DNA of 54,332 nt from IMG/VR virus record IMGVR_UViG_3300033153_003825, positions 1 to 54,332 of that record, one strand, 5' to 3'. Origin of the DNA: a virus. The notes under the pieces were generated by a model. The model saw only the letters and a list, made by a program, of their open reading frames with translations, did no database searches and was not told the origin of the DNA. Positions 35,240 through 51,667 of this stretch are shown piece after piece. The position numbers were made by a program, and so were the translations under genes. Position 1 is the first letter of the stretch. The number at the start of each line of letters is the position of its first letter.

Positions 35240-38200
35240 ATGACCCAGTATGCCCGCCCAGATAACGATGACAGCAACCCAGGGGGATGGAGCCCTGCGG
35301 TTGGCGGGACGTTGTATGGCGAACTAGACGAGGTCACACCCAGCGACACGGACTACATCGACGACAATAGCGTGGGCTACTGCGAGGTCGGCCTTTCCAG
35401 CGTCACCGACCCGGCAGTAGGTACCGGCCATGTTGTCAGCTACCACTACCGCCGCACCCCGACCAACCGTGCCATCACCATGCGGGTTTCGCTCTACGAC
35501 GGCACCACGCTCATCGCGGGTCCGTGGTCGCACGTCAATCCTGCTGGCACCTTCACACTGGTTGAACAAACCCTAAGTGAAGCCCAGGCCAATAACGTAT
35601 CGACGGCTGGCTATGCGGGTGCGCTTAAACTTCGTTTTGAGATAACGGCCCTTCAGAACTCACAGGCCCACGCCCAGTTCAGTTGGGCCGAGTTGGCTGT
35701 GCCGGATGCAGGTTCTACGCACAACGCCACCGCAGCCCTGACCTTACCTGCGCTGACCGCCTCCGGTGCAGCGACGTATTCGTCTGGGACAAATGACGCC
35801 ACAGCAAGTCTGACGCTCCCGGCCCTGACCGCTTCGGGGACCGCTACTCACACGGGACCGCCACACAACGCTACGGCCACACTCGTATTAGCCGCGCTCC
35901 TGATGGCGGGGACGGCGACGTTCACGAAGCCTGAGTATCAGGCGACGGGGGCGCAGGACCTACCCGCGCTGACGCTTAGTGCCACGGCGACTCACGTACC
36001 ACCTGACCACGACGCGACGGCCAGCTTAACGCTACCTGCGTTGACGGCTTCGGGGACGGCCACGTTCGTTGACACGCCGACGTTTGACGCAACAGCTTCG
36101 CTTACCCTACCCGCGCTCACGTTGTCGGCCACGGCTACGCATGTCGCGCCGATCGAGCTTTTTGATTCGACGTACATCACGGCGAGCGGTGAAGATACGA
36201 CCGAACAGCTTGCGGCTCCCGATGGTGCCGTCGCCTTCTCTGCTGGTCGGATTCAGGATGACGAGAACCCAGCCGATTCGATTGCCGCGAATGCTACGGG
36301 CTGGACGGAACTGGAATGGGCGATTAAGGCGCGGGAGCCTGCGGCTGGTGAAACGTGGAAGTTCCGATTAAGCCTGGATGGAACGCCTATTACGCTGGAC
36401 GTCACGCCAAAGTTGACGGTCACGGCTGGCTCTACGCACGACGCCACAGCCGCCTTGACGCTCCCAGCCCTGACGGCCTCCGGTACGGCGACCCACGCGA
36501 TTGCGGAGCGCCAAGCCACTGCGTCGTTCACCCTACCAGCCCTGGCCGCTGTGGGGACTGCGACATTCGTGAAGCCGGAGTTCCAGGCAACGGCAGCAGT
36601 CTCTCTGCCCGCGTTGACCGCGTCCGGTACCGCTGAGTTCCCGCACTCTCAGGGTTCAGCCACCCTTGACCTCTCCGCCTTAGCGGCCAGCGGTACGGCC
36701 ACCCACGCGATCGCAGAGCGTCAAGCGACCGCATCTCCGACACTACCTGCGCTCACGGCATCGGGCACGGCAACTTTCGTCAAGCCCGAGTTTCAGGCAA
36801 GCGCATCACTAACCTTACCCGCGCTAGAGGCGACGGGTACGGCAACCTTCGTAAAACCCGAAGTTCAAGCCACGGCGTCCCTGACGCTACCGGCCCTGAC
36901 CGCAACGGGCACCGCGACACACGCGATTTCTCCGTCCAGCGCGACGGCTACACTAGACCTACCTGCCCTGACCGCCTCGGGGACCGCGACCCATGCGATT
37001 GCAGAGAGAAGCGCGACAGCGGCGCTGAACCTTCCGGCCCTAACGGCATCTGGCGCTGCAACACACGCGATCGCCCCGTCTGACGCGACCGCAGCTCTAG
37101 ACCTACCGGCGTTGACTGCGGCGGGGACAGCGACCTTCACGAAGCCCGAAGTCCAAGCCACTGCATCGCTGACGCTGTCTGCGCTCCAGGCATCCGGTAC
37201 CGCTGAGTTCCCACATAGCCAGGGGACGTTCGCTCAGTCGCTACCTGCCCTGACAGCCGCAGGCACGGCGACTCATGTACCCCCAGGCCACGATGCAACG
37301 GCAGCGATAGATTTACCCGCCCTGACGGCATCGGGTACAGCAACCTTTGTGAAGCCGGAGTTCCAGGCGACGGCGAGCTTCGCGCTTCCGGCACTGACAG
37401 CGAGCGGCACGGCTGAGTTCCCGCACTCTCAAGGCACGGCGTCTCTTGCGCTGTCGCCGCTCCAAGCGTCCGGGACTGCGACATTTGTGAAGCCGGAGTT
37501 CCAGGCGGCGGCGTCCCTAACCCTGCCTGCCTTAACTGCGACGGGTACCGCGCAACACCCAGACCAGGCGAGCGCCGCGCTGGCACTACCCGCATTGACC
37601 CTCACGGCGACGGCGACCCATTCGCCGCCGACGTTCAGTGCCACGGCGGGCCTGAGCCTCCCTGCCCTCACCGTTGCAGGGGTGGCCGCGAACTCAACGA
37701 ACGATGCGACGGCCAGCTTGGTACTACCGAGTCTGACCGCTTCGGGCACAGCCTCTCATGTAGTCGCTGACAACGTGGGGCAAGCAAATCTAAACCTCCC
37801 CGCACTGACAGCATCGGGTACGGCGACGTTCCCGCACAGCAAGGGCACGGCCTCGCTTGCGTTGTCCGCTCTGACCGCTTCTGGCACCGCGACGTTCGTG
37901 AAGCCGGAGTATTCTGCGACAGCGGCGGTCGGCCTTCCAGCCCTGACGATGGCCGGGACCGCGCAGCACCCGGACCAGGCCAGCGCAGCCCTTACACTCC
38001 CGGCGCTTACGGCCTCCGGCACAGCTACCCATGTAGCGCCCCAGCATGACGCTTCAGCGTCCGTGGACCTCGCCGCCCTACAGGCATCGGGTACGGCCAC
38101 ATTCGTTAAGCCCGAGTACCAAGCCACCGCGTCGCTCGACCTCCCGGCACTGACCGCCAGCGGTGCAGCAACCTACGTTGAGCCGCCAAGCAACGCCTCA

Positions 38201-38539
38201 GCAGCCTTGGGCCTCCCCGCCCTGACCGCCAGCGGTACGGCGACGTTCACGAAGCCAGAGTTCCAGGCAACGGCGGCGATTACGCTTCCAGCCCTAACTG
38301 CCAGTGGTGAGGGTACACCGCTTTCGGGTGGGACAGCCGTGCTTGCCCTTCCATCCCTGGAGGTGTCCGGTACCGCAGGGTTTGTTCTCAATCCGACACT
38401 GGACGTAGACGCGACTCTAAGGCACAATCTCACGGTGGCGTCCAGTATCGAACATGATTTAGATGTGGACATGGGCGCATCTTTGAAGCATGATTTGAAC
38501 GTGGACGCCGAAATGAGGGACCAAGACGATGACAGCTAA
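35240..38539 (+). CDS. giant short-repeat fibre protein
   Basis: 1099 residues. An N-terminal beta domain (about 1-158) is followed by about 34 repeats of 20-24 residues with consensus ATASLTLPALTASGTATFVKPE. One ~95-residue non-repeat domain interrupts after repeat 6 (about 36140-36430). The end has LRHNLTVASSIEHDLDVDMG-like pseudo-repeats and an acidic tail. Alternating short hydrophobic strands and Gly/Pro turns suggest a beta-solenoid or fibrous shaft. An N-terminal domain plus long shaft fits a tail fibre or surface-coat protein. The overlap with the next gene is 11 bases. Confidence 0.75.
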   Translation: MTQYARPDNDDSNPGGWSPAVGGTLYGELDEVTPSDTDYIDDNSVGYCEVGLSSVTDPAVGTGHVVSYHYRRTPTNRAITMRVSLYDGTTLIAGPWSHVNPAGTFTLVEQTLSEAQANNVSTAGYAGALKLRFEITALQNSQAHAQFSWAELAVPDAGSTHNATAALTLPALTASGAATYSSGTNDATASLTLPALTASGTATHTGPPHNATATLVLAALLMAGTATFTKPEYQATGAQDLPALTLSATATHVPPDHDATASLTLPALTASGTATFVDTPTFDATASLTLPALTLSATATHVAPIELFDSTYITASGEDTTEQLAAPDGAVAFSAGRIQDDENPADSIAANATGWTELEWAIKAREPAAGETWKFRLSLDGTPITLDVTPKLTVTAGSTHDATAALTLPALTASGTATHAIAERQATASFTLPALAAVGTATFVKPEFQATAAVSLPALTASGTAEFPHSQGSATLDLSALAASGTATHAIAERQATASPTLPALTASGTATFVKPEFQASASLTLPALEATGTATFVKPEVQATASLTLPALTATGTATHAISPSSATATLDLPALTASGTATHAIAERSATAALNLPALTASGAATHAIAPSDATAALDLPALTAAGTATFTKPEVQATASLTLSALQASGTAEFPHSQGTFAQSLPALTAAGTATHVPPGHDATAAIDLPALTASGTATFVKPEFQATASFALPALTASGTAEFPHSQGTASLALSPLQASGTATFVKPEFQAAASLTLPALTATGTAQHPDQASAALALPALTLTATATHSPPTFSATAGLSLPALTVAGVAANSTNDATASLVLPSLTASGTASHVVADNVGQANLNLPALTASGTATFPHSKGTASLALSALTASGTATFVKPEYSATAAVGLPALTMAGTAQHPDQASAALTLPALTASGTATHVAPQHDASASVDLAALQASGTATFVKPEYQATASLDLPALTASGAATYVEPPSNASAALGLPALTASGTATFTKPEFQATAAITLPALTASGEGTPLSGGTAVLALPSLEVSGTAGFVLNPTLDVDATLRHNLTVASSIEHDLDVDMGASLKHDLNVDAEMRDQDDDS
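35715..38393 (+). repeat. about 34 tandem 60-72-base coding repeats
   Basis: Protein-level repeats are close to identical (LPALTASGTAT), but the DNA copies use many different synonymous codons for the same residues, for example Thr-Ala-Ser-Gly as accgcctccggt, acggcttcgggg, accgcgtccggt or acggcatcgggc. Linkers alternate among a few types: TFVKPEFQ, THAIAERQ, EFPHSQG, QHPDQAS, THVPPDHD. So amino-acid sequence is conserved while DNA identity between copies is kept low. Confidence 0.8.
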
Positions 38540-40033: not shown

Positions 40034-40062
40034 TTGACTTTGTGGTGTTATCCTCTTAACAT
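40034..40062 (+). promoter_or_regulatory. sigma70-like promoter of the replication block
   Basis: TTGACT (40034-40039) is separated by exactly 17 bases from TAACAT (40057-40062). Five of six and four of six bases match the -35 and -10 consensus. It lies in the 76-base gap between the lysis/fibre block and the gene at 40099 and would transcribe the replication genes rightward. Confidence 0.6.
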
Positions 40063-40098: not shown

Positions 40099-40386
40099 AT
40101 GCTCACCAAGGAAAAGAGGGCGACGAAGACCGTCGCTACCATAAAGAAGTCGGTAAGGTCTGGATTTACGCTGGCCGAAACAATAAGGATGTTGCTTGAC
40201 GAAACCTTCGAGGCCCTCGCCCAGCAAAATGAAATCAACGCAGAAGAGTTCACCATGTGCCTCTTGGACTACCCAGGAAGGAGGATTCCAAAGGTCCGCA
40301 GGATCTTGGCGCGAAAGTTGGGACTCAAACTCTCTGTCATGAATGATTTGATCGACACCTACCGTCGCCACAACACCAGAAAGTAG
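40099..40386 (+). CDS. small basic protein, first gene after the promoter
   Basis: 95 residues. A Lys/Thr/Arg-rich N-terminus (LTKEKRATKTVATIKKSVRS) precedes helices FTLAETIRMLLDETFEALAQ and VRRILARKLGLKLSVMNDLI. The composition fits a small DNA-binding regulator of the replication block. The ribosome site GGGGGG is strong. Unknown family. Confidence 0.6.
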   Translation: MLTKEKRATKTVATIKKSVRSGFTLAETIRMLLDETFEALAQQNEINAEEFTMCLLDYPGRRIPKVRRILARKLGLKLSVMNDLIDTYRRHNTRK

Positions 40387-40675: not shown

Positions 40676-41805
40676 TGAATGATGCCCAAGTTGTCGCAGA
40701 TCACCCTGCGGGACCTCTAGCGGGCCGTGTCGTAAGGGACGAGAACGGGGACGCGGTGAACCCGATGGTGAATCGCGAGGCATGGAAGCTGGTGCGGCAA
40801 CCATGCCTCGGATCCTCAGACATGCCAGCCATCTTCGGACAGGACGAATACCGGGAGCCGTGGAACATTTGGGACCGGATCGTACTGGGTGACTGGGAGG
40901 ATGCGGAGGGTGGGGACATCCGGCGTGGGGTCAAGCAGGAGAAGGTCGCACGACAGACTTTCGTGGACCGCACGGGGTTGGACGTCTTGGCCCTACCCAT
41001 GGTTCACCACCCGGATAACCCACGCATCGTGACCGATACGGACGGGCTCGTTATTAACCCCGGTGAGAAGAGGTGGCCCGAGGTGGTGAGAGAGTCTGAA
41101 GTGTTGAGTCCCGTCACTAAGTTCAAGGGGCACGGATGGATGGAGTTGAAGGTGCCACGGATTCCAAGATTCTATCGGTTCAAGGAAGAAGGATTGCCCC
41201 GCGCTCACATCATCCAAGCGCAAACTCACGGCCTTGTCACGGGGCTTGATTGGGGTTTCTTCGCCTTCTACACACCCGAGTACGACGAACTTATTGCGTT
41301 CCCGGTCCTGACCGACTGGGTTTTTTGTGATTGGTTGCTGAAGTCGGCAACGGAGTGGCTGGAGTCCTACGTGGACCTGGAGATACGTCCCGAACGTCCC
41401 GCTCCACCTCCTCCGAAGTGGCCTGACCCAATTCCTGGAGAGGCCACGTTGAGGGAGGACGATGAGTGGATGCTTTGGTCTGCCGTGATGATCCAGAAGC
41501 ACTACGATCTCCTGGAGGCCGAAGAGGACAAGAAGGAGACTGAGGAGAAGGTGGTTTCCTTGCTTGGGGAAGGGGACCAACACGTAGCAGGGAACGGCGT
41601 GAAGGTTACGCGGAAGAGTTCCGCATCCCAGCGTCGGACTGACTTTAAGAAATTCAGGGCTGCGTTCAAGATTGCCCAGAAGAGGATGGACCTCCGGGCG
41701 TTGAAGTACTTGGACCCAGACTCGGACGAATTCAAGTACAGCACCGCCACGAGTGAGAAGGTTAAGGTGGTCGTGCTCGCCCCTAACCCGATGGAGGACT
41801 TCTAA
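40672..41805 (+). CDS. YqaJ-type phage recombinase exonuclease
   Basis: 377 residues (GTG at 40672, or ATG 40675). YqaJ/lambda-exonuclease features: LGSSDMPAIFGQDEY near residue 46, RRGVKQEKVARQTFVDRTG with the conserved Glu, VTDTDGLV with the active-site Asp, and MELKVPR as the E-x-K motif. The C-terminal third is a coiled coil and a basic tail. These enzymes resect double-strand ends to create 3' overhangs for annealing-type recombination. The next gene and ssb probably act with it. Confidence 0.8.
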   Translation: MMNDAQVVADHPAGPLAGRVVRDENGDAVNPMVNREAWKLVRQPCLGSSDMPAIFGQDEYREPWNIWDRIVLGDWEDAEGGDIRRGVKQEKVARQTFVDRTGLDVLALPMVHHPDNPRIVTDTDGLVINPGEKRWPEVVRESEVLSPVTKFKGHGWMELKVPRIPRFYRFKEEGLPRAHIIQAQTHGLVTGLDWGFFAFYTPEYDELIAFPVLTDWVFCDWLLKSATEWLESYVDLEIRPERPAPPPPKWPDPIPGEATLREDDEWMLWSAVMIQKHYDLLEAEEDKKETEEKVVSLLGEGDQHVAGNGVKVTRKSSASQRRTDFKKFRAAFKIAQKRMDLRALKYLDPDSDEFKYSTATSEKVKVVVLAPNPMEDF

Positions 41806-43028
41806 TGGGGCTTATCAGTCGGAAGCTGCTGAAGCGGCGTCCACAAGAGTTAGGTAAGATCAAGATTGGTGGTAAGGGGGCAGAGAGAGCGGGCCAAGGG
41901 GGCACAAAATACCAACTGCCAGTCAAGTACGATCACTTCCTTGTCACCACCCGCGCCCGAGGTGAAGACGGCAACTTCGTCACGGACGCCAAAATCCATG
42001 CTCATTCGAGTGTGGGAGACAAGCCCACAGAACTCGCCGGGGTCCTGATGTACGAGACTCCTGAGCAAAACTTCCATGCAGAGATGGCTCTTTGGAAAGG
42101 GAAGACTCAGAAGATTTCGACCTGTGACGGGGAGGAAAGGACGAACCTGTCGGACGGGAAGGTGACGCCTTGCGTTAAGGCCCAGGGTGGTGAGTGTCAG
42201 TGCAAGCCCTACGGACGCCTTCATCTTCAACTGTGGGCCTCCGGCCATGTCATGGGCTACCACACGTTTCGCACCACCTCCTGGGAGTCTGTGAACAACA
42301 TCCAGACCGTACTTCAGGAGGTTTACGAGCGATTCGGGACACTCTTCCAGGCTCCGGTGAAGTTGGTGATGTACCCTTCGGAGGACCAATACAAACAGGG
42401 TAGCGAGACAAGAGTTTCCACGTCCTGGAAGGTGGGCCTCGTGCTAGCCATGTCCATCGAAGAAGCTGCCAAGAGAATGGTGTCGTCGAAGCGTCAGTTG
42501 GACCTGGCGCGTGGTGAACTCAAGCTGATCGCCAGTGAGGTTCAGAAGGACCAGGCCGACCGTGACATGGAGGAGGCTGAGGATATTGCCGATGAGTTCT
42601 TCCCAGAGGACGGCATCGAGGCATCGGTCCAGAGTCAGGAAACGCTGGACGACCTGAAAGAGGAGCTTGGGGTTGCCCTGGACGCGGACTTCGAGGTAGT
42701 GGGGCCAGAGAGTCCTGAACCTGAACCTGAACTTGAACCCGAGTCTGAGTCTGAGTCTGAGTCTGAGTCCTTGCCAGCTTGGGAGCAAGAAGCCGAAACG
42801 CTCTTTAGCAAGATCACGGGCTCCCTCGAAGACATGGACGAAGAAGAGGCTACGGCCATGTTGGTCAGGTACCTTAAAAAGTACGCACCGAAGGTTTCCG
42901 AACAGACTGCGGAGTATGTCGGCACCAGGAATGCGGCTGGGTACACCAGGCGGAAAGCGGAGAACGATCTGAAGAAGGTGATTTGGGAATTTCAAGAGGC
43001 TCAACCGAGGGAAGGGGACGCCTTCTAA
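41805..43028 (+). CDS. Gp3-like phage protein (recombination partner)
   Basis: 407 residues starting at a one-base overlap with the exonuclease. Residues 1-185 follow the pattern of a phage family I know as Gp3-like, or 'hydrolase or metal-binding': GKIKIGGKG, LPVKYDHFLVTT, a Cys cluster (CDGEE through CVKAQGGECQCKP), and GYHTFRTTSWESVNNIQTVL. In phiC31-like phages Gp3 is a recombination directionality factor, so a role in controlling recombination is possible. The C-terminal half is acidic with GAGTCT tandem repeats (42741-42770) coding Glu-Ser. A single-strand annealing partner role is equally possible from position. Confidence 0.6.
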   Translation: MGLISRKLLKRRPQELGKIKIGGKGAERAGQGGTKYQLPVKYDHFLVTTRARGEDGNFVTDAKIHAHSSVGDKPTELAGVLMYETPEQNFHAEMALWKGKTQKISTCDGEERTNLSDGKVTPCVKAQGGECQCKPYGRLHLQLWASGHVMGYHTFRTTSWESVNNIQTVLQEVYERFGTLFQAPVKLVMYPSEDQYKQGSETRVSTSWKVGLVLAMSIEEAAKRMVSSKRQLDLARGELKLIASEVQKDQADRDMEEAEDIADEFFPEDGIEASVQSQETLDDLKEELGVALDADFEVVGPESPEPEPELEPESESESESESLPAWEQEAETLFSKITGSLEDMDEEEATAMLVRYLKKYAPKVSEQTAEYVGTRNAAGYTRRKAENDLKKVIWEFQEAQPREGDAF

Positions 43029-45093: not shown

Positions 45094-45598
45094 GACTTGG
45101 GGGTGGGCGGTGATGAATCGGGACACGGACTACCCCTTGATTCGCTGGGGCGAGGAGAGTGCCGGGAACGACGCCACCTCAAACGCAAGTTCTGGGATGA
45201 TCTATCACACCTACCGGACGTGGTTGCGTGAGTTCTTGGACAAAATACAGCCCGACCTCTTGGTGTATGAGTCTGTCCGCTTCACTCGGGGTGTGTCGTA
45301 CATCGAGGGGCAGAAGGGCATCCTTTTGGCCGAGCTAGAGGGCCGAGGAATTCCATACTATGGTCTGCCGATCGGTACGTTAAAGAAGTACGCCACCGGG
45401 CACGGCAAGGCGAAGAAGTACCACGTCATGTCCGTTGTAGCCTGGAGGTGGAACCGCAAGAGTGGTTTCGCGCAAGCCAGGCCGTGGGATCAACGGAAGA
45501 AGCTCACTGACAATATGGCCGACGCTCTTTGGTGCGCTCACCACGGATGGACGACCTGGCTTGGCTCTGAAGCGATGGCCCCAACGCCAGGGGGGTGA
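45059..45598 (+). CDS. RuvC-like Holliday junction resolvase
   Basis: 179 residues from GTG 45059. RNase H-fold acidic residues: Asp9 in GLDLGKTWGW, Glu71 in LVYESVRF, and Asp151/Asp155 in LTDNMADALW, the RuvC layout. A GIPYYGLPIGTLKKYATGHG stretch with basic residues is typical of phage RuvC homologues that bind DNA junctions. It cuts branched DNA after recombination or replication, before packaging. It is the last gene of the plus-strand replication block. Confidence 0.8.
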   Translation: MEFKAAGLDLGKTWGWAVMNRDTDYPLIRWGEESAGNDATSNASSGMIYHTYRTWLREFLDKIQPDLLVYESVRFTRGVSYIEGQKGILLAELEGRGIPYYGLPIGTLKKYATGHGKAKKYHVMSVVAWRWNRKSGFAQARPWDQRKKLTDNMADALWCAHHGWTTWLGSEAMAPTPGG

Positions 45599-45610
45599 CG
45601 CTAGGGCCAA

Positions 45611-45661
45611 GTCGGCCTCGGGGAAGGGGACAGCCGACCGCTAGTAAAAACTAGGCCGACC
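45611..45661. repeat. GTCGGC/GCCGACC repeat cluster, candidate attP or terminator
   Basis: GTCGGCC at 45611-45617, GCCGACC at 45633-45639 and GCCGACC at 45655-45661. Between the last two lies CTAGT-AAAA-ACTAG (45641-45654), an inverted repeat with a 4-base centre. The direct repeats and the palindrome abut the integrase stop, where attachment sites often lie. The repeats can also form alternative hairpins between the two converging transcripts. Which function applies is not decidable here. Confidence 0.4.
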
Positions 45662-46811
45662 TGATGTCCAAGTCAACGACTTCGTCCCGGTATAGAAGGC
45701 CCACCGCACGTTCCACCGCGTCCACTCTTTCGTCCTCCGCCCTCCGCCCCCTGCGACCGAAGTTGCTGTCGATTACGTGTCCTGGCGTCACGCCGAGTAT
45801 CATCGAAATCAGGAATGGATGAGCCCCGGCCTCCGCCATGTGAACGGCCCCAGCCTTACGCAACATGGACGGATCATACTCCACGTCATTGAAGATCCAT
45901 GCGAGCATCTTCCGTGACATAACCCCACCGGGTATTCCCCCTTCGTAGAAGCCGAGACGCACGGCCTCCACTACCCCTGTCGGCAATGGAACGGTGCGCT
46001 CAGTCCCCCTCGACATCCTGTGCTTGTACTTCTTCCCGGAGATTTTTACGTGGCCGACGCCGACACCCCACTTGGCAATCGGATGAGTCTCCTGCCAGGA
46101 TCGGACGAACCAGCTATCGTCCACGGCGGCGTAGATTTCATGACTATTCGCCTCGGAATGGCCCACGATCTCCATAGCTTGTTCCAGGGTAGCCCCGGTA
46201 TTCAGGAGCCAAGTGATGCACGTATGGCGTAGGTCGTGAGGTGTGGCCGTTTCTGACACCCCTGGAAGGTAGCGATCCATGATGTAACGGATCCCGTTGG
46301 CCGACAAAGCCTTTCCCCTGTCGGACTGGAGGAGTGGGCGGCTATCGTGGAGTGCGCCTACCTCAGCTTGCCCAAGGTGCCCACCCTCTCCAGCGACGAG
46401 GCGATTGATTCGGTCCTGGAGGGGCGTTGGGACATATACCTTGCGTTTCCTCCCACCCTTTCCGTGGATGAGTATAAACATCCGCCCATCACGTGAGTCT
46501 AAATCGACCAGGCGGATCCTCCGAAGCTCGACTTGGCGCAACCCACAGACCAGTCCCATCTCTACGGCAACTTGGTCCCGGAGGTTCCCGCCGTTCTCTA
46601 CGGAAGACAGCAGAGCTTTCGCTTGGCTGTACGTCAGCCCTCGACTGTCGATAGTACTTAGTAGCCTGGGAGGTTGTACTTGGACCGCATCCCACCTGAG
46701 CCTGTGGATCTCGCCAGCCCCCAAGCCAGCGTAACTCAGGTAGGACACGGCCCTGCGGGTAGGATTCGAGTCCCCTTCTATGGATTTTTTGATCTCATTT
46801 GGTCCCAACAT
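45651..46811 (-). CDS. int: tyrosine recombinase (integrase) with nested domain architecture
   Basis: 386 residues with a GGGGAG site. Residues 53-232 form a complete tyrosine recombinase: Arg92 (GLRQVELRR), Lys118 (HGKGGRKRK), His192-x2-Arg195 (HDLRHTC), His218 (VGHSE), Tyr227 (HEIYAAV). Around it are two more recombinase-like pieces: residues 3-46 resemble a box I with Arg replaced by Gly31 (AGLGAGEIHRLRWDAV), and 252-354 resemble the beta-hairpin plus box II, with Ser315, Arg318, Val341 and Phe351 where His, Arg, His and Tyr belong. The outer pieces together would form a degenerate domain interrupted by the active one. A normal core-binding domain is not evident. Confidence 0.85.
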   Translation of the reverse strand: MLGPNEIKKSIEGDSNPTRRAVSYLSYAGLGAGEIHRLRWDAVQVQPPRLLSTIDSRGLTYSQAKALLSSVENGGNLRDQVAVEMGLVCGLRQVELRRIRLVDLDSRDGRMFILIHGKGGRKRKVYVPTPLQDRINRLVAGEGGHLGQAEVGALHDSRPLLQSDRGKALSANGIRYIMDRYLPGVSETATPHDLRHTCITWLLNTGATLEQAMEIVGHSEANSHEIYAAVDDSWFVRSWQETHPIAKWGVGVGHVKISGKKYKHRMSRGTERTVPLPTGVVEAVRLGFYEGGIPGGVMSRKMLAWIFNDVEYDPSMLRKAGAVHMAEAGAHPFLISMILGVTPGHVIDSNFGRRGRRAEDERVDAVERAVGLLYRDEVVDLDIRSA

Positions 46812-46834: not shown

Positions 46835-46850
46835 TGTTAGGAGACTAACA
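46835..46850. promoter_or_regulatory. TGTTAG/CTAACA palindrome upstream of the integrase
   Basis: TGTTAG (46835-46840), GAGA, CTAACA (46845-46850): perfect six-base arms with a 4-base centre. It lies between the 46845-47066 gene and the integrase, overlapping the former's stop and just upstream of the integrase ribosome site. It may be an operator or a small mRNA hairpin. Confidence 0.35.
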
Positions 46851-47418: not shown

Positions 47419-47593
47419 CGTCCTCCCCTTTCTCTTCTGGGCGGACGAAGCTCGCCGTCCCTTTCATCTTGAGGGCCTTGAGGCGTTGTTCGTAGTTGGG
47501 GACCAGGCGACGCTTGAGCTTTTTTTGCTGCTCCTCACTCTTTTGTCTTCGTTCCTGGAGCACCTTCATCTTTCTGCGTCTGCCTTTTGTCAT
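47396..47593 (-). CDS. small basic coiled-coil protein
   Basis: 65 residues, Lys/Arg/Gln/Glu-rich from the start (MTKGRRRKMKVLQERRQKSE) and helical to about residue 45, then an acidic end. It is sandwiched by overlaps between a sulfotransferase-like gene and the HAD gene. Unknown function; nucleic-acid binding is possible. Confidence 0.5.
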   Translation of the reverse strand: MTKGRRRKMKVLQERRQKSEEQQKKLKRRLVPNYEQRLKALKMKGTASFVRPEEKGEDDEAVDRS

Positions 47594-48231
47594 GGTAAGG
47601 CCCCTACGTTGTACCGGAAGCGATGAAGCTCCTCGGCGTGATGTTTCTCAATCCAAGCAATCGCGCCTGGCGTGAAGTGGGACGCTTGGTCTTCTTTGGG
47701 CTTACCGGGCGTTGCGTTGCGATGCTCTAACGTCTCCGGCTCGCCCGTGGCCCCATCAATACACTCACCAATCAGGGGCAAATCGAAGGCGCGGAAGAGG
47801 CGATTGTACTCCTCTCGCAACCCTCGCTCGAAGCGCATCTGCCAGGTAGGTCCGGGCAACTGTTCCCAGGCGAACCTCCACATACGGCCCCGGTGTGGGT
47901 GATACTTGATGCCCCGGTACATGAACTCTTCCAGAAACTCTACCGTAACCGGACCCCTTCCAGCGTCAGGCTCGCCCCACTGCCACCAATGCGTCAGGAT
48001 CGCTGAGAAGGGGTTACGCACCATGTAGACGTACGTGAAGGTGCGTTCATCACCCTCCCACCACTTCCGGTACGGTTGGCCTTTGTGTGGCCCCAGGTCC
48101 CAGGGTCCGTCGTGATGTCCACCGAGGTTGTCGAATCCCCTCTTCTTTTTGTTCAACAGCCGCGCCAACGTAGTCGTGCCCACGCTTTGGTGATTTAGGA
48201 CGACTATCTTCTTCTCGAAGTGAACCTTCAT
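47590..48231 (-). CDS. sulfotransferase-like protein, copy 1
   Basis: 213 residues. VVLNHQSVGTTTLARLL (residues 10-26) is in the place of the 5'-phosphosulfate-binding loop of PAPS-dependent sulfotransferases; YMVRNPFSAILTHWW (69-83) has the Arg-x-Pro-x-x-x-Ser-like 3'-phosphate-binding motif. RGRMWRFAWEQLPGP and SHFTPGAIAWIEKHHAEELH complete a fold shared with the protein at 51050-51667. It may transfer sulfate from PAPS to a glycan or small molecule. The target cannot be told. Confidence 0.65.
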   Translation of the reverse strand: MKVHFEKKIVVLNHQSVGTTTLARLLNKKKRGFDNLGGHHDGPWDLGPHKGQPYRKWWEGDERTFTYVYMVRNPFSAILTHWWQWGEPDAGRGPVTVEFLEEFMYRGIKYHPHRGRMWRFAWEQLPGPTWQMRFERGLREEYNRLFRAFDLPLIGECIDGATGEPETLEHRNATPGKPKEDQASHFTPGAIAWIEKHHAEELHRFRYNVGALP

Positions 48232-50792: not shown

Positions 50793-51053
50793 CTAAATCC
50801 ACTCCATCGGAGAATGACCCAAGAGCATCGGAATAATACGAATGGCGAAGTGAATCCAGAGCCAGGTGATGAACGTCATAAAGAGCCAGCCGTACCAATG
50901 CACCCGCTCAGACACGGCACAGTTGTTTTCAGTAAAGCTCCAGGCTGGGGTGGAGCCGACTCCGTACATTTCAGCGCCGTAGAAGATGCCGACCAAGACC
51001 ATCATGTAGAAGAGAAACCAATCAAGGTGCAACGGATAATGGTACTCACTCAT
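50793..51053 (-). CDS. two-span membrane protein
   Basis: 86 residues from ATG 51053, a 4-base overlap with the previous gene. Hydrophobic stretches about 11-26 (WFLFYMMVLVGIFYGA) and 52-78 (WYGWLFMTFITWLWIHFAI plus following). The loop carries a SFTENNCAVSERVHW stretch. Function unknown; it may act at the envelope with the neighbouring sulfotransferase-like protein. Confidence 0.55.
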   Translation of the reverse strand: MSEYHYPLHLDWFLFYMMVLVGIFYGAEMYGVGSTPAWSFTENNCAVSERVHWYGWLFMTFITWLWIHFAIRIIPMLLGHSPMEWI

Positions 51054-51667
51054 TTCGATTCTCCGTGAAGGCGGTAGCCCAACTGCATCGCTTCGGCGCG
51101 GTAGGCTTCCTTGAGATAGTCGAGTCCTTCGGGCGTGAAGTGCTCTACCCATGGCCCAAGCGGCTTGTTTGTGGTGACGTGCTTGGGGTCTTTCCGTAGC
51201 TCCCACTCCTCAAGGCGTCCAAGGTCGTAGGCGATCAGGTAGCGATTCACGTCCTTAGTAAGCGACTCGAAGCGGAGGATACTGGCTCCTGGTATTTCCC
51301 AGACGAAACGCCACAAACGGCGTGAGCCAAGGAACAGGCGGGGGTACTGGCGCGGCCATTCCGCGAGGAACCTGGCGCAAACCTTATCCTGGTCCCACTC
51401 GGAGTTCACTTCCTTGAATGTGGACCACCAGGACAAGAGGGCGTCACCATGGTTCCGTACTACGAAGGCGTAGTCGCAATCCAGCGGGTTCGTATCCCAC
51501 CATACTCGCTCGATCGGCATGTCTAGTTGCTGGTGAAGGTTTCGAGGCCCTTCGTGACGGGCTCCGATTATCTTGAAGCCTCGCCGCATGAAGATCCTTT
51601 CGAGCCACCGGGACGCTGCTTTTGCGTGGAGGCCGAAGACCAACTCCCTCTCTTTATTAAAGAGCAT
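51050..51667 (-). CDS. sulfotransferase-like protein, copy 2
   Basis: 205 residues, a paralogue of the 47590-48231 protein. Shared landmarks: a P-loop-like VFGLHAKAASRWLERIF near the start; RRGFKIIGARHEGPRNL, matching RGFDNLGGHHDGPWDL in copy 1; FVVRNHGDALLSWW, matching YMVRNPFSAILTHWW; RRLWRFVWEIPGA, matching RGRMWRFAWEQLPGP; and EHFTPEGLDYLKEAYRAEAM. The Pro of the Arg-Asn-Pro motif is replaced by His here. It overlaps both neighbours. It may be a diverged sulfotransferase with a different acceptor, or have lost activity. Confidence 0.6.
   Translation of the reverse strand: MLFNKERELVFGLHAKAASRWLERIFMRRGFKIIGARHEGPRNLHQQLDMPIERVWWDTNPLDCDYAFVVRNHGDALLSWWSTFKEVNSEWDQDKVCARFLAEWPRQYPRLFLGSRRLWRFVWEIPGASILRFESLTKDVNRYLIAYDLGRLEEWELRKDPKHVTTNKPLGPWVEHFTPEGLDYLKEAYRAEAMQLGYRLHGESK

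Follow-up and report, generated by a model that had tools for sequence, protein, structure and literature searches.

A phage tyrosine recombinase with a catalytic domain predicted to be nested within a second, catalytically dead one

The window analysed here (the whole stretch of 54,332 nucleotides of viral DNA) encodes a tyrosine recombinase of 386 residues (positions 45651–46811, minus strand; assigned from the open reading frame and its translation) which, judged from sequence profiles and a structure model, almost certainly consists of a complete Xer-like catalytic domain (approximately residues 58–248) nested in a catalytically dead one (residues 1–46 and 251–354). A conserved C-terminal helix (residues 356–374) is also part of the protein, and both profiles and model point to an outer catalytic domain that has no detectable core-binding domain ahead of it. 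The gene is the only one in the record with a PF00589 match, and we consider it fairly probable that this single recombinase of the phage, with one catalytic domain inside another, uses the dead domain as a DNA-holding or assembly module. Four uncultured phages, including the one in the window, form a small group with the nested design; the arrangement is absent from the 116 ordinary recombinases examined.

The first-pass annotation of this gene had read it as an inactive recombinase fold interrupted by an active one, and the open reading frame as well as every residue it had named were found in place. The inner domain (residues 58–233; 46113–46640, minus strand) contains, as claimed there, a full catalytic set, namely Arg92, Lys118, His192, Arg195, His218 and Tyr227. 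When the whole protein was searched against Pfam, only this domain was matched (PF00589 at residues 59–232, E 3.6e-26, profile positions 3–170 of 172). In an alignment of 61 sequences, made up of the window protein, its three homologues and 57 unrelated phage recombinases, five of the six residues (Arg92, Lys118, His192, Arg195 and Tyr227) were invariant, and His218 was at least 90% conserved. Given this complete catalytic set, the inner domain should be active. The elements predicted by AlphaFold2 comprise helices 61–73, 77–88 and 93–97, strands 104–107, 110–116 and 122–127, and helices 129–139, 171–184, 191–204, 209–216, 221–225 and 232–242, and structure comparison of the domain gave matches to an archaeal XerA-type recombinase (Z 20.8) and to XerH (Z 19.2). 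The segment that contains the final inner helices and leads back to the outer domain (residues 234–250; 46062–46112, minus strand) carries a conserved HPIA[KQ]WG motif, and the profile match to the inner domain extends to the HP.A end typical of Xer-type domains.

The outer domain is split around this insert. Its first part (residues 1–46; 46674–46811, minus strand) was aligned by HHalign to columns 5–56 of a catalytic-domain profile built from 112 unrelated genomic and phage recombinases, and contains helices 4–12, 17–28 and 32–36 and a strand at 43–44 in the AlphaFold2 model, together with a box I match in which Gly31 replaces the catalytic arginine. The presence of a helix before box I (4–12) and of β1 (43–44) indicates that the outer domain is a complete catalytic domain from the start codon onward. 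A weakly conserved linker (residues 47–57; 46641–46673, minus strand; 3 of 11 positions invariant among the four homologues) leads into the inner domain. After the insert, the second part (residues 251–354; 45750–46061, minus strand) was aligned to columns 49–190 of the same profile and is predicted to form strands 253–257 and 272–276 followed by helices 278–291, 300–308, 314–327 and 332–339. It includes the conserved residues Arg265, Arg268 and Arg272 and a box II-like stretch in which Arg318 is present and the catalytic His and Tyr are absent. The protein ends with the C-terminal helix placed by AlphaFold2 and a tail (residues 355–386; 45654–45749, minus strand), where 13 of 32 positions are invariant. 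The split fold proposed earlier is supported, but its boundary, which had been put between box I and the β-hairpin, is better drawn with helix 4–12 and β1 included in the first part and the insert at the β1–β2 turn, the position seen in the AlphaFold2 model.

The similarity of the outer parts to a recombinase became apparent when they were joined. Searched singly against Pfam, the N-terminal flank gave no match and the C-terminal flank an E of 0.09, which is not significant, whereas the joined flanks (residues 1–46 and 251–386) matched PF00589 with E 8e-6 to 1.3e-5 and 25.5–26.1 bits, just under the curated cut-off of 27.1; the joined flanks of all four family members matched this family. When the flanks were joined in swapped order the PF00589 match weakened to E 0.012, and the N-terminal flank followed by a shuffled C-terminal flank gave no PF00589 match. 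Similarly, the HHalign scores against the catalytic-domain profile added up, with 27.7 for the N-terminal part, 39.4 for the C-terminal part and 65.0 for the joined sequence, which covered columns 5–190 with a probability of 97.8% and a single-template E of 4.9e-12, while 60 column shuffles all stayed at or below 0.6% probability. The joined outer sequences scored 22–27 bits, compared to at most 5.3 bits in 6000 nulls.

The same tendency was seen in a blind flank test, for which the best catalytic domain was cut out of each of 120 recombinases and the remaining flanks were joined and rescored. Here, the four nested proteins reached 14.1–18.1 bits, whereas the 116 ordinary recombinases did not exceed 4.1. 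A full-length profile built from 29 unrelated genomic recombinases matched three of the four nested proteins with box I, a full catalytic domain, the β-hairpin and box II in this order; for the nested protein P0002, the box II piece was not reported separately in this search. Direct HHalign comparison of outer and inner domain, with shallow profiles of four sequences each, gave nothing useful, and when the joined outer domain was used for a profile search against solved structures, no recombinase was returned.

Judged from the aligned sequences and the model, the outer active site is lost in all four phages. The position of the first catalytic arginine is occupied by Gly31, that of the lysine (residue 260) by K, R, R and E, that of the first histidine (His II) by Ser or Thr315 and that of the second (His III) by Val or Ile341, and there is no tyrosine. 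Gly31, Phe351 and Arg318 are invariant, the last of these, corresponding to Arg II, being the sole catalytic residue retained. The exchange of the box I arginine for Gly31 had been noticed in the first-pass annotation, and both its invariance and the profile match of the N-terminal part bear it out. The annotation had also given the two histidine positions the same spacing of 26 residues in the inner and outer copies (192 to 218 and 315 to 341), which is correct. The step to the nucleophile, however, is 10 residues in the outer domain (Val341 to Phe351) and 9 in the inner one (His218 to Tyr227). The outer equivalent of the nucleophile is consequently either Asn350 or Phe351 (Asn/Lys350 or Phe351 across the four phages). 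The outer domain is basic (pI 9.0–9.9), and Arg265, Arg268 and Arg272, all at the β2–β3 segment, are invariant.

AlphaFold2 supplied with the four sequences only gave a pLDDT of 48, from which no conclusions were drawn. In a rerun, 57 unrelated recombinase domains were added, which align to the inner part only and make the alignment deep only there; this prediction reached a pLDDT of 83.1 and a pTM of 0.75, with residues 262–268 and 343–349 poorly predicted. In the resulting model, the order of elements is the same in the outer and inner domains, except that the short helix bearing the Tyr is without an outer counterpart. The model thus gives two nested domains with the same element order and not one domain with unrelated extensions, and Pfam, HHalign, the nulls and the flank test allow the joined outer pieces to be recognised as the catalytic domain of a tyrosine recombinase. 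Both lines support the reading of an inactive outer fold carrying a whole recombinase domain, the activity of the latter being predicted from its residues. In the structure comparison, every listed range starts in the inner domain, so that the matches bear on this domain and neither assign nor exclude a family for the outer one. In a few cases (4a8e, 5vfz and 3vcf) the aligned range reaches residue 374–376, which may mean that the C-terminal helix packs on the inner domain in the position that the final helix has in ordinary recombinases.

Homologues sharing the split layout over their full length were found on three other IMG/VR contigs (L002, 62% identical; L003, 71%; L004, 67%), and the nested family rests on these three sequences and that of the window. 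The locus is the same in all four phages, with the recombinase gene facing a RuvC-like gene, followed by genes for a DnaB-type helicase and a helicase loader. An assembly chimera or a pseudogene is ruled out by the presence of an intact gene at the same locus on four separate contigs. Between the window and L002, the outer domain is 65–66% and the inner domain 60% identical, so that the outer domain is conserved as well as the inner one, and in both domains second codon positions vary far less than third positions. The conservation of an outer domain whose active site is dead in all four phages indicates a maintained dead domain and no recent accident. Searches of cellular genomes, cultured phages and plasmids found no full-length relatives and returned ordinary integrases via the inner domain, or nothing; one of the genome scans relied on inner-domain patterns, and the outer C-terminal part was searched in 299 genomes of a single phylum, without a positive control. 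The nested design may have arisen when one catalytic domain was inserted into another, or else by successive deletions in a tandem array, and the complementary flanks favour insertion.

Integration and chromosome resolution are the textbook functions of tyrosine recombinases, whose ordinary members hold DNA in a C-shaped clamp formed by a core-binding and a catalytic domain, with the β2–β3 hairpin as a DNA-contacting place. In the predicted architecture of the protein described here, the outer catalytic domain starts the gene directly, a Xer-like domain of about 200 residues enters at its β1–β2 turn, and the outer domain resumes at β2 and continues to its C-terminal helix. Cutting and joining would be performed by the inner domain via Tyr227. 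The outer domain lacks Arg I, Lys, His II, His III and Tyr but retains its predicted fold, Arg II and the basic β2–β3 segment. Since the dead catalytic domain is the only other folded module, and is basic and Arg-rich at the β2–β3 hairpin, we propose that it would substitute for a core-binding domain or organise assembly. Replacement of a core-binding domain, DNA holding and regulation of synapsis had been put forward in the first-pass annotation as possible tasks of the dead domain. Whether it touches DNA we regard as evenly balanced. The recombinase would presumably serve integration, excision or multimer resolution.

A simpler reading is that of an ordinary integrase with a single catalytic domain, in which residues 1–46 are the remnant of a core-binding domain and residues 251–386 an unrelated C-terminal extension. 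N-terminal modules before the catalytic domain are common in integrases, and the whole-protein Pfam search, which gave the inner domain only, would agree with such a layout. However, profile searches of the protein matched no core-binding family, and in all four homologues residues 1–46 fall on box I of the full-length profile and outside its core-binding part, which rules out a core-binding remnant. Moreover, the C-terminal part matches the catalytic domain from β2 to its end, the flanks of the 116 ordinary recombinases fail to score likewise, and AlphaFold2 shows a second set of the same elements; we hold this reading to be very improbable. The outer fold could also be the product of an accidental fusion, kept only as a scaffold that the inner domain needs and without a DNA-binding or regulatory role. 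Loss of the outer active site would be expected in this case, and the stability of an inserted domain can depend on the host fold, but an outer domain as conserved as the inner one, with constrained second codon positions and invariant motifs at the putative DNA-facing hairpin, makes a mere scaffold unlikely.

Two further possibilities assign the dead domain a regulatory task. It could be a DNA-binding regulator like MrpR or SroF, so that recombinase and repressor are combined in one protein acting on operators such as the palindrome GTTA-N6-TAAC. This palindrome is located upstream of the recombinase gene (46836–46849), in a position shared by all four phages, and a second copy (40047–40060), likewise present in all four, lies upstream of a small gene (40099–40386) preceding the replication genes (positions in the relatives: 7962 and 14376 in L002, 7960 and 14476 in L003, 7329 and 13888 in L004); the two may constitute a shared operator. 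Dead tyrosine-recombinase folds do serve as phage repressors (PMC10516654), SroF and YopR were among the structure matches, and the genes scanned included no other recognisable repressor. The known repressors, however, have core-binding and catalytic-type domains whereas only the catalytic type is found here, the small unknown proteins of the operon could bind the palindrome equally well, and nothing ties the outer domain to it, which leaves a repressor function as a minor possibility. Alternatively, the dead domain could be a built-in pseudo-partner that makes each chain a heterodimer of an active and a dead catalytic domain, in which case a synapse of active and inactive subunits would limit or direct strand exchange. 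In a variant of this idea, only a single strand exchange or one orientation would be permitted and the Holliday junction would be finished by another nuclease, such as the RuvC-like neighbour. One dead and one intact catalytic domain are indeed held in each chain, a RuvC-like gene adjoins the recombinase gene in all four phages, and a few of the structure matches align up to the outer C-terminal helix. RuvC-like genes are nevertheless common in phages, and here the gene is on the opposite strand, beside replication genes; we judge the pseudo-partner to be quite unlikely, and its RuvC-dependent variant equally so.

The preferred reading, a dead domain that holds DNA or organises assembly, has only partial parallels among known systems. 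The inner domain shares its fold (Z 19–21), its catalytic set and the HP.A C-terminal end with Xer-type recombinases (archaeal XerA, 4a8e and 5hxy; Helicobacter XerH, 5jjv and 5jk0), but these consist of a core-binding domain and one catalytic domain, whereas in the nested protein the latter lies inside a second catalytic domain and a core-binding domain was not found. In the passages considered of a large survey of tyrosine recombinases, the modules described are of the arm-binding and core-binding kinds, with two core-binding domains in one subgroup; the insertions reported for the catalytic domain are short, and no catalytic domain within another is mentioned (PMC8138268). According to the same passages, the catalytic domain tolerates insertions, some of them at the β-hairpin, in the integron integrase, IntTn916 and IntBPP-1 groups, as it does here, but their insertions are short and lie within an active domain; those of IntTn916 and IntBPP-1 are at β2–β3, whereas a whole catalytic domain is found here at β1–β2 of a dead one (PMC8138268). 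Literature searches for catalytic domains that are nested, inactive or present twice, and for domain architectures, in which subscription papers were little covered, named no such protein.

The persistence of a dead recombinase fold as a DNA-binding protein is known from MrpR of phage SPbeta (PMC10516654). Like the outer domain, MrpR and SroF of phi3T are tyrosine-recombinase folds without the catalytic residues that have been retained in phages, and the fold and residue loss of the outer domain fit this type, with operator binding as a candidate role; MrpR, however, is a stand-alone repressor that includes a core-binding domain (PMC10516654), whereas the dead domain here is fused around an intact one. 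Engineered zinc-finger insertions in Cre-type recombinases have demonstrated that activity can depend on a second DNA-binding domain (PMC11631766). In these fusions, too, the DNA-binding domain is joined by insertion and not terminally, but they are engineered, at position 278/279 of an active domain, while the arrangement described here is natural and the active domain is itself the insert. If an intact and a dead domain do share the work in the proposed way, this would represent a new route to a DNA-binding or regulatory module in tyrosine recombinases. Recombinases controlled by domain insertion would have a natural model in the nested design, which also opens to experiment the question of whether a pseudo-enzyme can replace a core-binding domain.

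Recombinases that begin at the catalytic domain are known from FimB and FimE. Two such proteins, near-identical and small, were observed on L028 and L034 (open frames of 204 and 225 residues), with close relatives in the viral contigs L124 and L125. Like the outer domain, the L028 and L034 proteins have no core-binding domain ahead, but they consist of a single domain and have retained the catalytic residues.

The record represents a 54-kb virus whose gene products include a major head protein, an endolysin, a DnaD-like helicase loader, a RecE-like exonuclease and a RuvC-like resolvase, and stretches of it match phage genes annotated as DnaB helicase and terminase. Neither the window nor the three related loci contain a tRNA, and no attachment site was found beside the recombinase gene. 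Between the convergent recombinase and RuvC-like genes lies a 13-bp inverted repeat (45577–45608, minus strand), which overlaps the end of the RuvC-like gene in the window and occurs at the same place in L002, L003 and L004. Its consensus structure, with two compensatory pairs across the four phages, is probably that of a transcription terminator. A role as recombination core site was put aside, as most differences between the arms still allow pairing in RNA (G-U) and at two pairs both partners have changed.

A gene at 41805–43028, adjoining that of the RecE-like exonuclease, matched PF18897 ('Gp3-like, recombination directionality factor-like', E 4e-27). This family takes its name from the directionality factor of phiC31-type serine integrases; the only recognised integrase of the phage is the tyrosine recombinase. 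Near the structural genes, an open reading frame of 1099 residues (35240–38539) is largely made up of degenerate repeats, each about 72 bp (24 residues) long. Finally, two genes without a PHROGs match (47590–48231 and 51050–51667) are conserved in all four phages. Their products, each about 210 residues long and containing stretches that resemble VVRN and FRFE, look alike by eye and might be sulfotransferase-like paralogues.
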